Below are positions 14,792 through 49,288 of a stretch of DNA of 64,000 nt, one piece after another. The stretch's first letter is position 1. Every line of letters starts with the position of its first letter. The notes below the pieces were generated by a model. It saw only the letters and a program-made list of their open reading frames with translations. It was not told the DNA's origin and did no database searches. The position numbers and the translations under genes were made by a program. This stretch comes from Picosynechococcus sp. PCC 7003 (GTDB taxonomy: Bacteria > Cyanobacteriota > Cyanobacteriia > Cyanobacteriales > MRBY01): NCBI RefSeq assembly GCF_001693255.1, contig NZ_CP016474.1, forward strand, positions 124,001 through 188,000, read 5' to 3'.

Positions 14792-14820
14792 AAAAAAGGG
14801 AGCAGCTTAAACCCACTCCC
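14792..14820 (-). terminator. Intrinsic terminator, now separated from its likely gene
   Basis: On the minus strand GGGAG and CTCCC form a stem over a 13-nt loop, followed by TTTTTT (plus strand A-run 14792-14797). The nearest minus-strand gene upstream is the DUF4278 gene ending at 15214; the IS remnant lies between them. Confidence 0.55.
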
Positions 14821-14901
14821 AATCAATGCTCATTATTCTTACTGTTACTGTTACGATTACTGGGGAGATTTACCTTGTTTCATCACCAGAGTCAGAAAGA
14901 G

Positions 14902-15191
14902 ATGAACTACTCCAGCCTAAGAGGCATGGAGTTTCCGACGCTTCATCGCTCCTAGTTGCCTCATGCTTCCGCAATCGGTAGAGCTAGGCAGCTCTGCGTC
15001 TAAAGAGGCCAGTTCCTGACCCCTTGCCCAGGCTAAATTAACCTAAGCTGCATTGATTCTCTTTAAGTGATCAATGTGGCTACTGTCATAGCATATTATT
15101 TCCACACTGGTTGGTGATTCCGCTTTGCTACATCACCGCGCTATCCTTCCCTACCCTAATACCCTAAAGAGAGATAGGGACTGCCGCGCTA
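14902..15191 (-). mobile_element. MITE-like remnant of the IS200/IS605-type element found at 43974
   Basis: Read on the minus strand, its first ~46 bp match the left end of the element at 43974 (GCGCGGCAGTCCCTATCTC onwards) apart from one 8-nt insertion. Its last 156 bp (14902-15057) align without gaps to 45321-45476 with 10 mismatches by hand count. The middle ~80 bp are unrelated. The right-end hairpin with a single bulged T (14909-14932) is conserved exactly. The core of tnpB and the small regulator gene are missing, so it can only move, if at all, with proteins supplied in trans. Confidence 0.85.
14917..15057 (-). pseudogene. C-terminal fragment of tnpB with an internal stop
   Basis: The frame reads INAA-stop-VNLAWARGQEL and on to MKRRKLHAS, matching the last ~46 residues of the intact TnpB at 44214. 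A CAG glutamine codon has become TAG. Several of the other differences are synonymous, so the source was a diverged functional copy rather than this window's intact one. Confidence 0.85.
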
Positions 15192-15213
15192 AAGTTCAAA
15201 TCAAAATCACCGT

Positions 15214-15627
15214 TTAAACCGAAGATAAAGCATGAGATTCCTGTTGTAAAAGGGTAATCAGTTGCTCATCTCCCTGGGCTTGGGCCGTGCGGATCCGCCG
15301 TTCCAAACTGCGACGCATATTTTCCAGGTGCACGCGCCGGGCGTCTTGACCCATTAACTTAGAGAGCTGTGGCACCCGTACCGGACAAGCTGCGGCTGCC
15401 GCTTCCTGTTGCTGTTGGGCTGTTGCTTTAACCACAGGTTGCTGAATCGCGTAGGTGCCGCCCCGATAATGGAGAAGTACGGACTCGACATCTGGACGAT
15501 CAACTGTTTGTGTTACACAGTGTCGCCGCACCACTTGTCCACGATAACGACCTAAAATATCTCCTTCCGTCACTTCTAAGGTTGCGGGAAGAGAATCATA
15601 GGAAACACCACGATATGTTAATTTCAT
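15214..15627 (-). CDS. DUF4278 domain protein
   Basis: A 137-residue cyanobacterial protein of unknown function. The N-terminus MKLTYRGVSYD and the later LHYRGGTYAI carry the Tyr-Arg-Gly motif that defines DUF4278. The rest is a soluble Ala/Gln-rich segment and a basic helical C-terminus (RRSLERRIRTAQAQGDEQLITLL). The ATG at 15627 is preferred because the family begins with MKLxYRG; the longer frame adds 14 unlikely residues. The IS remnant begins about 23 bp after its stop and separates it from a terminator. Confidence 0.8.
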   Translation of the reverse strand: MKLTYRGVSYDSLPATLEVTEGDILGRYRGQVVRRHCVTQTVDRPDVESVLLHYRGGTYAIQQPVVKATAQQQQEAAAAACPVRVPQLSKLMGQDARRVHLENMRRSLERRIRTAQAQGDEQLITLLQQESHALSSV

Positions 15628-43827: not shown

Positions 43828-44047
43828 TCAGTTTCAAAAAGAGGTTAACAAATGTTTACGATTTTACTGCCTTTTGTCGGGATGCAGGGGAAATCACCGC
43901 AAAATTCCTTAATTTCGTTTAATTTTTCCCATTGTCTGGCCCTGGCGATCGCCCCAAAACTTCTTGAACTTGGGCGCGGCAGTCCCTATCTCTCTTTAGG
44001 GTAGGGAAGGATAGCGCGGCTACTGAAGAGAAACGGAAGTAGCCAAA

Positions 44048-44185
44048 TCAATCAGGCTTAGGCAATCGCCTTATGTACTCTCTGATAATTTGAGCCATGC
44101 TGACATCCTTGTTGGACGCGAACGCCTTGAGTCTTGCCAGATCCTCTGATGTTAGCCTTATTTTTAGTATTTCTGACTTGTTCAT
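44048..44185 (-). CDS. 45-residue ribbon-helix-helix (CopG-like) protein
   Basis: Too short for usual gene-finding limits but convincing. It reads MNKSEILKIRLT (beta strand), SEDLARLKAFASNKDV (helix 1) and SMAQIIREYIRRL (helix 2), the exact order of a ribbon-helix-helix DNA-binding domain. It is divergent from tnpB with 28 bp between start codons, in the position usually held by tnpA. Such proteins act as dimers on palindromic operators; two dyads lie in the gap. The stop is TGA at 44048-44050. No strong ribosome site is visible. Confidence 0.8.
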   Translation of the reverse strand: MNKSEILKIRLTSEDLARLKAFASNKDVSMAQIIREYIRRLPKPD

Positions 44186-44219
44186 TGTGGGCACAATAGA
44201 CTACCATAGGAGCATGGTA
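44184..44219. promoter_or_regulatory. Two perfect dyads overlapping both start codons of the element
   Basis: ATTGTG-GG-CACAAT (44184-44197) overlaps the RHH start codon. TACCAT-AGGAGC-ATGGTA (44202-44219) has the tnpB ATG in its right arm and the AGGAG ribosome site in its loop. They are candidate operators for the RHH protein; the second could also fold in the mRNA and hide the tnpB start. Confidence 0.7.
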
Positions 44220-45461
44220 ACACGCCGAATCACTTACAGGCTCTATCCAAGTCGCCAACAGCAAAAAAAGCTGCACTATTGGCGGCGTTTACATTGCAGT
44301 TTGTATAACGCAGCGATTGCTAACCGTAAAACCCAGTACCAAAAGTTCAACCATGCAGTCGATTACTTTGAGCAGCAAAATAGTCTGCCAGGGTTCAAGC
44401 AAGTATGGCCAGAATTTAAGGAACTGGGTTCCCATGCCCTACAGGCAACGTTAAAGCGAGTGGACTTTGCCTTCAACCGATTTTTTAAGGGATTGGGGGG
44501 ATATCCAAAGTTCAAGGCATCTCGACGCTATGGAGGGTGGACATATCCCTGCGGGGCAGGTTGGCAGGTAGAAACAGACGGTCAGCATGGCTTTCTCAAG
44601 TTGAGCCACTTAGGCAGAATGCAAATGAGAGGGAAAGCTCGCACCTGGGGAAAACCAACAACTTGCACAATTTTCTTCCGCCAGGGCAAGTGGTATGCCT
44701 CAATCACCGTCAAATGTGAACCCAAGCGGGAAACCGAGGGTGGGTCTGTGGGGATTGATTTAGGTTGCAAGGAAGCGATTACCCTTTCTACAGGGGAGCA
44801 ACTATCAAAGCCTGGCTTTATCAAAGTCGGTGAGGTTGCTGTAAGGCAAGCATCCAAGCAACTCAGACGAAAGCGTGCACCAAACCGAAATAAGCGAGTT
44901 AAAGCATCGCGGCGGTGGCAAAAAGCGAGACGGCAGGTATCAATGCGGCAACGCAAAATTACCCGTCAGCGCGAAGATTGGCTGCATCAAATCACAAGCA
45001 ACATAGTCAGCGGTAATAGCCTAGTTGCAGGTGAGCAGTTAAACGTCAAAAACATGACCCGCAAAGCCAAAAAAGGCAGCAAACGGAAAGCTCAAAAAAC
45101 AGGGCTTAACCGCTCCATTCTCTCGGTTGGCTTCGGCATGATTGGTTCAATGCTGGAATACAAGCTGGCAGAGGCAGGAGGATTTTATGTGGAGTCCCCG
45201 ACAAGGACGCTTAAGCCCTCTCAGCGTTGCGCTAAATGTTGGGAGCTAACGCCAAAGACATTGGCAGACAGGGTACATATTTGCTCAAACCCAAACTGTG
45301 GCCACAGGGAGGATAGAGATATCAATGCAGCTCAGGTTAATTTAGCCTGGGCAAGGGGTCAGGAACTGGCCTCTTCAGTCGCGGAGCCGCCAAGCTCTAC
45401 CGATTGCGGAAGCATGAGGCAACTTGGGGCGATGAAACGACGGAAACTCCATGCCTCTTAG
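44214..45461 (+). CDS. tnpB: TnpB RNA-guided nuclease of the first element, intact
   Basis: A 415-residue protein with the N-terminal OrfB helix-turn-helix region (RRITYRLYPSRQQQKKL), then a split RuvC site: Asp182 (GIDLG), Glu274 (AGEQLNVKNM) and Asp369 (EDRDINAAQ). The zinc finger is Cys339/Cys342/Cys357/Cys362. All catalytic residues are present, so it is probably active as an omega-RNA-guided DNA nuclease. The ATG at 44214 follows AGGAG by one base, a tight spacing; the longer upstream frame would cross the divergent gene. The stop lies inside the right-end hairpin. Confidence 0.92.
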   Translation: MVTRRITYRLYPSRQQQKKLHYWRRLHCSLYNAAIANRKTQYQKFNHAVDYFEQQNSLPGFKQVWPEFKELGSHALQATLKRVDFAFNRFFKGLGGYPKFKASRRYGGWTYPCGAGWQVETDGQHGFLKLSHLGRMQMRGKARTWGKPTTCTIFFRQGKWYASITVKCEPKRETEGGSVGIDLGCKEAITLSTGEQLSKPGFIKVGEVAVRQASKQLRRKRAPNRNKRVKASRRWQKARRQVSMRQRKITRQREDWLHQITSNIVSGNSLVAGEQLNVKNMTRKAKKGSKRKAQKTGLNRSILSVGFGMIGSMLEYKLAEAGGFYVESPTRTLKPSQRCAKCWELTPKTLADRVHICSNPNCGHREDRDINAAQVNLAWARGQELASSVAEPPSSTDCGSMRQLGAMKRRKLHAS

Positions 45462-45520
45462 GCTGGAGTAGTTCATGAGTTCTTTGTAGAATAGAAACTA
45501 GTCCATTGCACAAAAATTTT

Positions 45521-48082: not shown

Positions 48083-49288
48083 ATGCTTAACCTGACTTAC
48101 GAATACAGGCTCTATCCGACGGTCAATCAATCTTCCAAAATGGAGGAATGGCTGGAAACTTGCAAGCGCGTCTATAACTACGCCTTGGCAGAACGTCGTG
48201 ACTGGATTCAGTCCCGTAAGTGCCCAGTTAATGCTTGTAGTATTCAGCGGGAATTTATTTACCCAATGGATTCAGAAAAACCGACCTATTACAGTCAGAA
48301 GCGAAATTTGACCGCAGCGCGGAAAGAGAATCCTTTTCTGCAAAATGTTCATTCTCAAGTGCTTCAGGACGTAATGGGTCGGCTGGAAAAGGCGTTTAAT
48401 GCCCTGTGGAATAGTGGGTTTGGATTCCCACGGTTTAAGAAGCGTTTTCGCAGCTTTAACTTTCCGCAGTTGGGGAAAAATCCCATTGACAGCAATCGAA
48501 TCAAGCTGCCGGTATTTGGCTGGGTTAAGACCGTGATGCACCGTCCGATCCCTGATGGGTTTGAGGCGAAGCAAGCACGGGTCGTTAAACGCGCTTCTGG
48601 TTGGTATATCCAGCTAGTTATCCAAAGCGACGTTAAAATCCCAGATCCTGTTATCGGTGGTCACGCCATTGGGATTGATGTGGGGTTAAATCATTTTGTT
48701 GCGACATCAGACAACGAGTTAATTGCAAGGCCCAGATTCTTTGTGGAGGCACAACACAGGCTGAAAGTGCTGAACCGTGCCGTTGCCAGAAAGCAGAAAG
48801 GGTCAAAGAACCAGCAAAAAGCTCGTCAACGAGTCGCAAGATTCTATGAACGAATTGCGAACCGACGCAAGGATTTTCACCGCAAGCTCGCCCATCATCT
48901 CTGTGATCAAGCAGGGATGATATTTGCGGAGGAATTAAACCTAAAAGGACTGGCTAAAGGAATGCTGGGGAAGCATTGTCTGGATGCTGGGTGGGGTCAA
49001 TTCCTCGATACGCTTAAATGGGTCTGCTTCAAGCGGGGTGTGCATTTCCAAAAGGTTAAAGCCGCTGGCACAAGCCAAGAATGCCCAGCCTGTGGAGTAG
49101 CGGTGAGGAAAGATTTGTCTGTGCGTCGGCATGAATGCCCGGAATGTGGCTACACCACTCATCGCGATGTAGCCAGCGGACAAGTGATTCGTAATCGTGG
49201 ACTAATAGCGGTTGGACAGACCGTTCAATCCTGTGGAGCTACGCCCAGTGGGGAGGCTTTGAAGCAGGAATTTCTTAAGGCGACTTAA
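48083..49288 (+). CDS. tnpB: TnpB RNA-guided nuclease of the second element, intact
   Basis: A 401-residue protein, only distantly like the TnpB at 44214. The start MLNLTYEYRLYP is the OrfB helix-turn-helix form. The RuvC residues are Asp199 (GIDVGLNH), Glu283 (FAEELNLKGL) and Asp362 (THRDVAS); the zinc finger is Cys334/Cys337/Cys352/Cys355. All are intact. The stop codon TAA abuts the right-end hairpin, so the guide-RNA scaffold overlaps the gene's 3' end, as in other TnpB systems. A -10-like TATGAT precedes the ATG. Confidence 0.93.
   Translation: MLNLTYEYRLYPTVNQSSKMEEWLETCKRVYNYALAERRDWIQSRKCPVNACSIQREFIYPMDSEKPTYYSQKRNLTAARKENPFLQNVHSQVLQDVMGRLEKAFNALWNSGFGFPRFKKRFRSFNFPQLGKNPIDSNRIKLPVFGWVKTVMHRPIPDGFEAKQARVVKRASGWYIQLVIQSDVKIPDPVIGGHAIGIDVGLNHFVATSDNELIARPRFFVEAQHRLKVLNRAVARKQKGSKNQQKARQRVARFYERIANRRKDFHRKLAHHLCDQAGMIFAEELNLKGLAKGMLGKHCLDAGWGQFLDTLKWVCFKRGVHFQKVKAAGTSQECPACGVAVRKDLSVRRHECPECGYTTHRDVASGQVIRNRGLIAVGQTVQSCGATPSGEALKQEFLKAT

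Follow-up and report, generated by a model that had tools for sequence, protein, structure and literature searches.

A mobile protein-less IS200/IS605-type element family with a putative TnpB guide RNA in Picosynechococcus sp. PCC 7003

The 293-nt element at positions 14902 to 15194 (minus strand) of the window, by which we mean the whole 64,000-nt stretch of the Picosynechococcus sp. PCC 7003 genome that was analysed, belongs to a family of seven copies and is not a one-off deletion. It is well supported that the family is an IS200/IS605 element which moves, encodes no protein and keeps the structure of a TnpB guide RNA intact, and its action in trans with TnpB is plausible judging from the sequence. 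We lean towards reading it as a mobile guide RNA, that is, a non-autonomous IS200/IS605-type element (MITE/PATE-like) that would use both TnpA and TnpB in trans. The preliminary description had proposed that the locus arose by deletion from the first TnpB element and may act as a stand-alone guide-RNA locus. The sequence-level features of such a locus were borne out, namely a complete scaffold backed by covariation, the right end, a unique flanking guide and a TAM-like target at the left, and TnpBs with open reading frames are present elsewhere in the genome, whereas the derivation from the first TnpB element was not upheld.

Parts, copies and insertion sites of the element

The element starts with C-TTTAGCGC and ends with GTTCAT, and it adjoins TTGAA (15195 to 15199, minus strand), the target site and presumed TAM, which reads TTAAA at the unoccupied orthologous site in the same-genus genome G002. 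Of the span given at first, 14902 to 15191, the right boundary at 14902 holds and the left one moves to 15194. The left end (15138 to 15194, minus strand like all parts that follow) forms a subterminal imperfect hairpin; the first 60 nt fold at -20.5 kcal/mol, a figure without a shuffle control, and the hairpin loop has an 8-nt insertion in this copy (L009) only, the other six short copies being without it. A second left-end hairpin, GGTGAT..ATCACC (15113 to 15137), is replaced by GGCTACT..AGTAGCC in the tnpB copies and in the short copies L013 and L014, a different sequence with the complementarity kept (both by eye). Further inwards lie TATGCTATGACAG (15083 to 15095), which might be an extended -10 and is TATAAC in five other copies and CATAAT in L015, and the MITE-specific linker hairpin ATTGAT-CACTTAAAGAG-AATCAAT (15052 to 15075, by eye). 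The 122-nt omega-RNA scaffold (14902 to 15023) has a complete fold and includes the right-end hairpin CTCCATGCCTCTTAGGCTGGAG (14910 to 14931), so that subterminal hairpins are found at both ends, as in IS200/IS605 elements. The flanking DNA at 14886 to 14901 is the presumed 16-nt guide, CTCTTTCTGACTCTGG, and has the same letters in the unoccupied G002 allele.

A tnpB-only relative of 1508 nt lies in the same window (43969 to 45476, plus strand), preceded by its own TTGAA target/TAM (43964 to 43968) and followed by the guide GAGTTCTTTGTAGAAT (45477 to 45492). An ungapped comparison of the minus-strand element with this intact one, which ends at 45476, confirmed that the last 156 bp are kept with 10 mismatches and no gaps; beyond 156 nt the similarity drops fast (30 mismatches at 180 nt). 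Likewise, the right-end hairpin is identical in the alignment, the tnpB core is absent from the short element and the two guides, CTCTTTCTGACTCTGG and GAGTTCTTTGTAGAAT, are unlike, all as described before.

A whole-genome search with the element (3.35 Mb, three contigs) returned 23 matches, comprising seven short copies of ~290 nt (L009, the copy at 14902 to 15194, and L010 to L015), matches to the ends of longer elements and a single match of 22 nt next to one of the short copies. The six further short copies matched over 254 to 290 nt with 91-96% identity (E 3e-108 to 8e-134), and the 3' ~161 nt matched the full copies with E-values of 5.5e-64 to 9e-60; these E-values and identities exclude chance. 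The longer relatives are seven elements with tnpB alone (~1508 nt) and a copy on contig C3 that has a tnpB and a divergently oriented Y1 tnpA. Among five same-genus genomes, only G002 was matched by the whole element, with a full-length relative. An exact pattern from the MITE interior had no match in a collection of genome contigs, which possibly does not include the PCC 7003 genome itself, and a plasmid collection gave three records with partial matches only. In L013 and L014 a MITE-like interior is combined with left ends equal to those of the tnpB copies, which an exchange of ends by recombination could have produced.

As read from the alignment, all 15 copies, short and long, start after TGAA (11 TTGAA, three CTGAA and one GTGAA), and their right ends are GTTCAT in 14 and GTTCAC in one (L015). 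Ten of the 15 insertions were queried as joined sites against the five same-genus genomes and seven gave readable unoccupied junctions: L009, L010, L013, L015, L016 and L022 in G002, L011 in G001 and L022 again in G001. L017 had no match in the five genomes; L012 and L014, the remainder of the ten, had no readable unoccupied junction, nor had G001 at the L009 locus. At the L009 locus PCC 7003 has GATTTTGATTTGAA / element / CTCTTTCTGACTCTGG and G002 has GATTTTGATTTAAACTCTTTCTGACTCTGG, with 442 of 500 columns identical and the first 21 nt of the guide-side flank identical. The other unoccupied sites read CTTCAA/GACTTC for the tnpB-only element of the window (G002), CCTGAA/ACAATG in G002 and CTTGAA/ACAA in G001 for L022, CGAA for both L010 and L013 (G002), TTGAA with a 15-bp flank difference for L015 (G002) and TTTGAA/TTAGATC for L011 (G001). 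From these junctions it follows that the element spans 14902 to 15194, the C after TGAA included, and that its target is not duplicated; insertion on the 3' side of a short, fixed sequence, here (T/C/G)TGAA, with the target left single is the behaviour of IS200/IS605 elements. The exact ends of seven copies at scattered sites, together with the unoccupied sites in relatives, show that after the deletion the family was mobile as one unit. Judged by eye, L011 and L014 seem to lie inside reading frames or at their 5' ends, and the L011 site is uninterrupted in G001.

Fold and divergence of the omega-RNA scaffold

The scaffold was compared in an alignment of 24 sequences, made up of four MITE rows, five tnpB rows (three chromosomal ones, the C3 copy and G002) and 15 rows from other cyanobacteria; L051, L055 and L068, in which the pattern was not found, and L011, L014, L015 and L018 to L021 of the own genome, most of them duplicates, stand outside it. 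The fold counted was the centroid structure of the MITE minus four inner pairs of the last hairpin. Its 32 pairs hold in 97.4% of cells and 15 pairs show changes on both sides. Covariation was 0.372, against 0.150 in shuffled alignments (0/500 as high) and ~0.05-0.06 when the fold was slid, a control that flatters the count of paired cells and less so that of double changes because the fold came from one of the aligned sequences. Covariation thus gives strong support to this fold across cyanobacteria, a conserved structure that ends at the right end of the element, as an omega RNA does. When the window was scanned with Rfam, no family other than a tRNA reached the threshold.

Nine scaffold sites differ between the MITE and the tnpB copy of the window, and six of them form three compensatory pairs: 25-86 (A-U/U-A), 34-74 (U-A/C-G) and 38-71 (U-A/A-U). 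At sites 22, 25, 38, 71, 83 and 86 the letter of the MITE majority is the commonest one among the 15 rows of other cyanobacteria. All five tnpB rows, C3 and G002 included, carry the other letter at five of these six sites, and at site 22 C3 and G002 agree with the MITE. Sites 34 and 74 are derived in the MITE (U34-A74 for C34-G74), a double change within its own lineage, and at site 29 either letter may be the older one. As the MITE keeps the commonest letters at six of nine sites, its lineage seems to be an earlier split that spread as a family of its own, and an origin by deletion from the first TnpB element is not supported. The seven-copy family and the older letters in the scaffold together rule out a private deletion of the TnpB element of the window. 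The differences could predate the loss of tnpB, and the helix sequences of the present tnpB copies are partly unlike those of the MITE.

Between divergent short copies the scaffold is better preserved than the linker. L015, the most divergent MITE, and L009 have 15 differences over 114 linker sites and one over 122 scaffold sites (Fisher p 1.2e-4), and L013 differs from L010 at 12 of 116 and three of 122 sites (p 0.015). Close pairs showed no difference between the two regions (L009/L010, 3/114 vs 1/122, p 0.36; L012/L011, 1/114 vs 2/122, p 1). The low scaffold divergence could come from gene conversion or from youth. In L013 and L014 the pair 38-71 is broken by an uncompensated A38 A71 mismatch.

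Candidate partners, guide geometry and transcript

The tnpB gene of the window (44097 to 45461, plus strand) encodes a candidate nuclease in trans. It carries GIDLG, GEQLN and DRDINAA and the Cys pairs CAKC and CSNPNC, which we take to be the RuvC triad and the zinc ribbon of the family, and it aligns to the solved TnpBs 8h1j and 8bf8. The protein is identical to that of one other copy, 92-97% identical to those of the remaining chromosomal copies and 84% identical to that of C3. Internal stops are absent from six of the seven chromosomal full copies, the seventh being interrupted, and from the C3 copy over residues 29-454. The genome thus holds a putative nuclease of the matching clade with motifs intact by eye. 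The C3 copy also encodes a full-length Y1 TnpA of 136 aa, with HVH and Y read by eye and a match to PF01797 over positions 1-121 (1.7e-40), and so represents an autonomous relative. A second Y1 match to PF01797 is weak and partial (C1:588943-589116) and lies inside a 205-aa frame, possibly of a REP-type Y1 protein. Another, distant TnpB of 401 aa in the window (48083 to 49288; PF01385/PF07282) belongs to a different group, and its relatives elsewhere in the genome have ~28% identity to the first TnpB.

The identity of TAM and target and the guide length of 16 nt were adopted here from ISDra2, for which passages of PMC8612924 state that the TAM is the insertion target and that the flank supplies 16 nt of the guide. 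When TTGAA plus the 16-nt guide was searched with up to three mismatches, the own genome gave only the right junction of the element itself (two mismatches, TTCAT in place of the TAM) and G002 gave the unoccupied allele with one mismatch, located in the TAM (TTAAA); G001 and G004 had one three-mismatch match each elsewhere, and G003 and G005 had none. The flank-derived guide therefore matches the TAM plus the empty allele, with the reservation that the G002 allele has the guide and TTAAA at the TAM. This is the geometry expected for a TnpB guide, by which the occupied site would be spared and the empty site would be the target.

A DUF4278 gene (PF14105; 15214 to 15669, minus strand) lies upstream in the same direction, and the element sits in its 3' region before a terminator-like stem with a T run (14798 to 14820, minus strand; one found vs 0.9 in shuffles). 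The unoccupied G002 allele has a stem with a T run at the same place and paired changes in the stem (by eye), which makes read-through from the DUF4278 gene into the element plausible; such read-through could make the candidate guide RNA. The promoter scan found nothing above chance: its single weak site upstream, TTTACA/17/TATCTT (9/12; 15222 to 15250, minus strand), points into the element from just upstream (one found vs 0.6 in shuffles), and the internal TATRAC box noted above is weak and was not called.

The element lacks tnpA and nearly all of tnpB and retains the left end, the right end and the whole omega-RNA scaffold. In the mechanism that we propose, the Y1 TnpA from contig C3 would mobilise it. 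A transcript, from DUF4278 read-through or from a weak promoter upstream or inside, would be trimmed by TnpB from an intact copy to the ~122-nt scaffold plus the ~16-nt guide. TnpB would then cut only the empty allele (TTGAA plus CTCTTTCTGACTCTGG), which excision leaves behind or sister chromosomes carry, and the element would be restored by repair from the occupied copy. As each copy has its own guide, one pool of TnpB would protect all copies in trans. On a more tentative reading, each jump writes a new guide and the mobile guide RNA would amount to a trans-acting gene drive. Picosynechococcus is polyploid, and such a drive in a cyanobacterium with multiple chromosomes would help insertions to sweep the sister chromosomes.

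Scaffolds without tnpB in other genomes and competing explanations

Among 195 genomes of the order, 65 had a match to a covariance model of the scaffold (E <= 1e-4); some of the 195 had supplied rows to the model. We examined 60 loci outside the own genome, mostly from the top of the matches listed and with those at contig edges excluded; seven with short upstream context were dropped and 53 with at least 1.5 kb upstream were counted. An upstream TnpB was absent from 16 of the 53, in 11 genomes (tblastn with the window TnpB, mostly on the best of the listed matches), and several others of the 53 have a truncated tnpB; among the counted loci, L149 has a TnpB match downstream only. Short stretches of TnpB C-terminal codons or a run of N, seen by eye, indicate that part of the 16 are truncated or interrupted elements and not clean MITEs, and a left end is present by eye in L139, L172, L176 and L180. 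Directly upstream of the tnpB-less scaffold of L149 (genome G030) are TTGACA and TATAAT, 19 nt apart; the close TnpBs among the matches listed for that genome are all broken. Two viral contigs from IMG/VR (L236 and L237) contain the scaffold core; next to it, each matches TnpB over a C-terminal fragment only, and so no stand-alone copy borne by a phage was found there.

One genome, G084, has a family of its own. Twelve of its 13 scaffold matches were examined: 11 have no TnpB in a stretch of ~0.5-1 kb (two of them at contig edges), and the twelfth adjoins the only close TnpB among the matches listed, at 60% identity. Eight tnpB-less copies share a linker, and their alignment, with L204 trimmed, L205, L207, L208 and the tnpB-linked L209 left out and the fold taken from one member (L199), gave 10 double-change pairs vs 5.1 in shuffles (1/500 as high) and a covariation of 0.227 vs 0.161 (0/500 as high); of the five covariation measures one, the count of additional pair types, did not exceed that in shuffles (202/500). 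The linker hairpin of this family is a predicted fold and lies outside these pair counts. Against a guide role in all copies speaks that L204 has lost the right end and L205, L206 and L207 part of helix 1. L202 and L208 are tnpB-less scaffolds without a recognised left end, and L208 lies ~60 nt behind a tRNA-Met gene on the same strand (ARAGORN, L208:490-563, minus), the transcript of which could include it.

The main competitor of the mobile guide RNA is an ordinary MITE/PATE moved by TnpA in trans, in which the scaffold was kept since the right end lies within it and the copies are young, and no guide works. We consider this rather unlikely, although much agrees with it: end hairpins are a known requirement of TnpA, an ends-only IS605 element has been described without a stated RNA role in the passages of PMC7290912 that treat it, the copies are similar to each other, L013 and L014 break one scaffold pair and between close MITE pairs the scaffold is no more constrained than the linker. 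Moreover, of nine genomes searched that have tnpB-less or context-less scaffolds, four (G048, G088, G084 and G029) have an intact close TnpB (at least 55% identity, open frame of at least 390 aa) in the matches listed and five (G021, G030, G018, G158 and G064) have none among them, which counts against universal use in trans. What such a MITE leaves unexplained is that the right-end hairpin lies within the last ~40 nt and yet 122 nt are kept with compensatory changes, that divergent copies keep the scaffold far better than the linker and that the same scaffold recurs in other tnpB-less loci, one set of which is a family in its own right.

An RNA that acts as a competitor or brake of TnpB, or as a 3' UTR element of the DUF4278 mRNA, in place of a guide for cutting, seems very unlikely to us. 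The position in the 3' region of that gene, before a terminator-like site present in G002 too, would suit the 3' UTR role, and cleavage is reportedly inhibited by TnpB mRNA according to passages of PMC10278001; the guide side is nevertheless intact and matches a true empty allele, and the 3' UTR role cannot be general since other copies sit in other flanks. Hardly credible is a dead remnant, the product of a chance internal deletion in a tnpB element and now decaying: the missing tnpB core and the 8-nt insertion in the left-end hairpin loop of L009 would fit, and the seven dispersed copies, exact ends and unoccupied sites in relatives contradict it for the family. For the family, the unoccupied sites in relatives rule out a dead single remnant.

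The mobile guide RNA reading has near neighbours. With the ISDra2-type TnpB/omega RNA (reRNA) of IS200/IS605, as presented in parts of PMC8612924, the system shares TnpB RuvC motifs, a right-end RNA (which in the full copies here overlaps the 3' end of tnpB), a flank guide and a TAM equal to the insertion target (TTGAT in ISDra2, TTGAA-like here); it differs in that this RNA locus has no tnpB in cis, so that any action is necessarily in trans. The Halanaerobium ends-only PATE/MITE of IS200/IS605 (~271 nt) is similarly short with both ends present, and such elements are said in sections of PMC7290912 to move by transposase in trans; it is described there with palindromic ends only, whereas the element here has a complete covarying omega-RNA scaffold. 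The RAGATH-18 RNAs share a conserved TnpB guide scaffold, although theirs is another scaffold and belongs to the IS607 family; 64% of them (10,258/16,029) adjoin a TnpB according to portions of PMC11061315, so about a third do not. For the TnpB gene drive in multicopy plasmids the proposed benefit is likewise the cutting of element-free copies (excerpts of PMC11870625), but there TnpB and guide are in one element, whereas the guide element here would borrow its TnpB.

Our literature search, outside which Altae-Tran 2021 and Meers 2023 stood, found no description of tnpB-less mobile elements that retain a TnpB guide RNA. Both of these works may touch on tnpB-less guide-RNA elements, and Altae-Tran 2021 reportedly includes stand-alone trans-acting omega RNAs of IscB in Ktedonobacter racemifer. 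Those loci are reportedly alike in lying away from the nuclease gene and differ in serving IscB and not TnpB. A look-up of terms in parts of PMC10711439, PMC12558985 and PMC8730458 brought up no tnpB-less mobile guide elements. Given ends-only PATEs, RAGATH-18 RNAs away from TnpB and stand-alone IscB RNAs, we regard the element as a variant and not as a new kind.

Should the RNA be in use, a TnpB system would not have to consist of one nuclease and one guide: small parasites could add guides in trans, each for its own empty site, and the arrangement would resemble a simple forerunner of nucleases that work with many guides. Only tentatively do we extend this to cyanobacteria at large, which might carry mobile guide-RNA families that have no protein gene and borrow TnpA to move and TnpB to defend their insertions, with one nuclease served by many dispersed, self-reprogramming guides. 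Were this so, G084 would be the extreme case, with one close TnpB among the matches listed, 11 of 12 scaffold loci tnpB-less and one behind a tRNA-Met gene. The linker hairpins at 15052 to 15075 and in the G084 family both have (R)TCACTTAA near the 5' arm in otherwise unlike linkers, by chance or as a shared RNA part.
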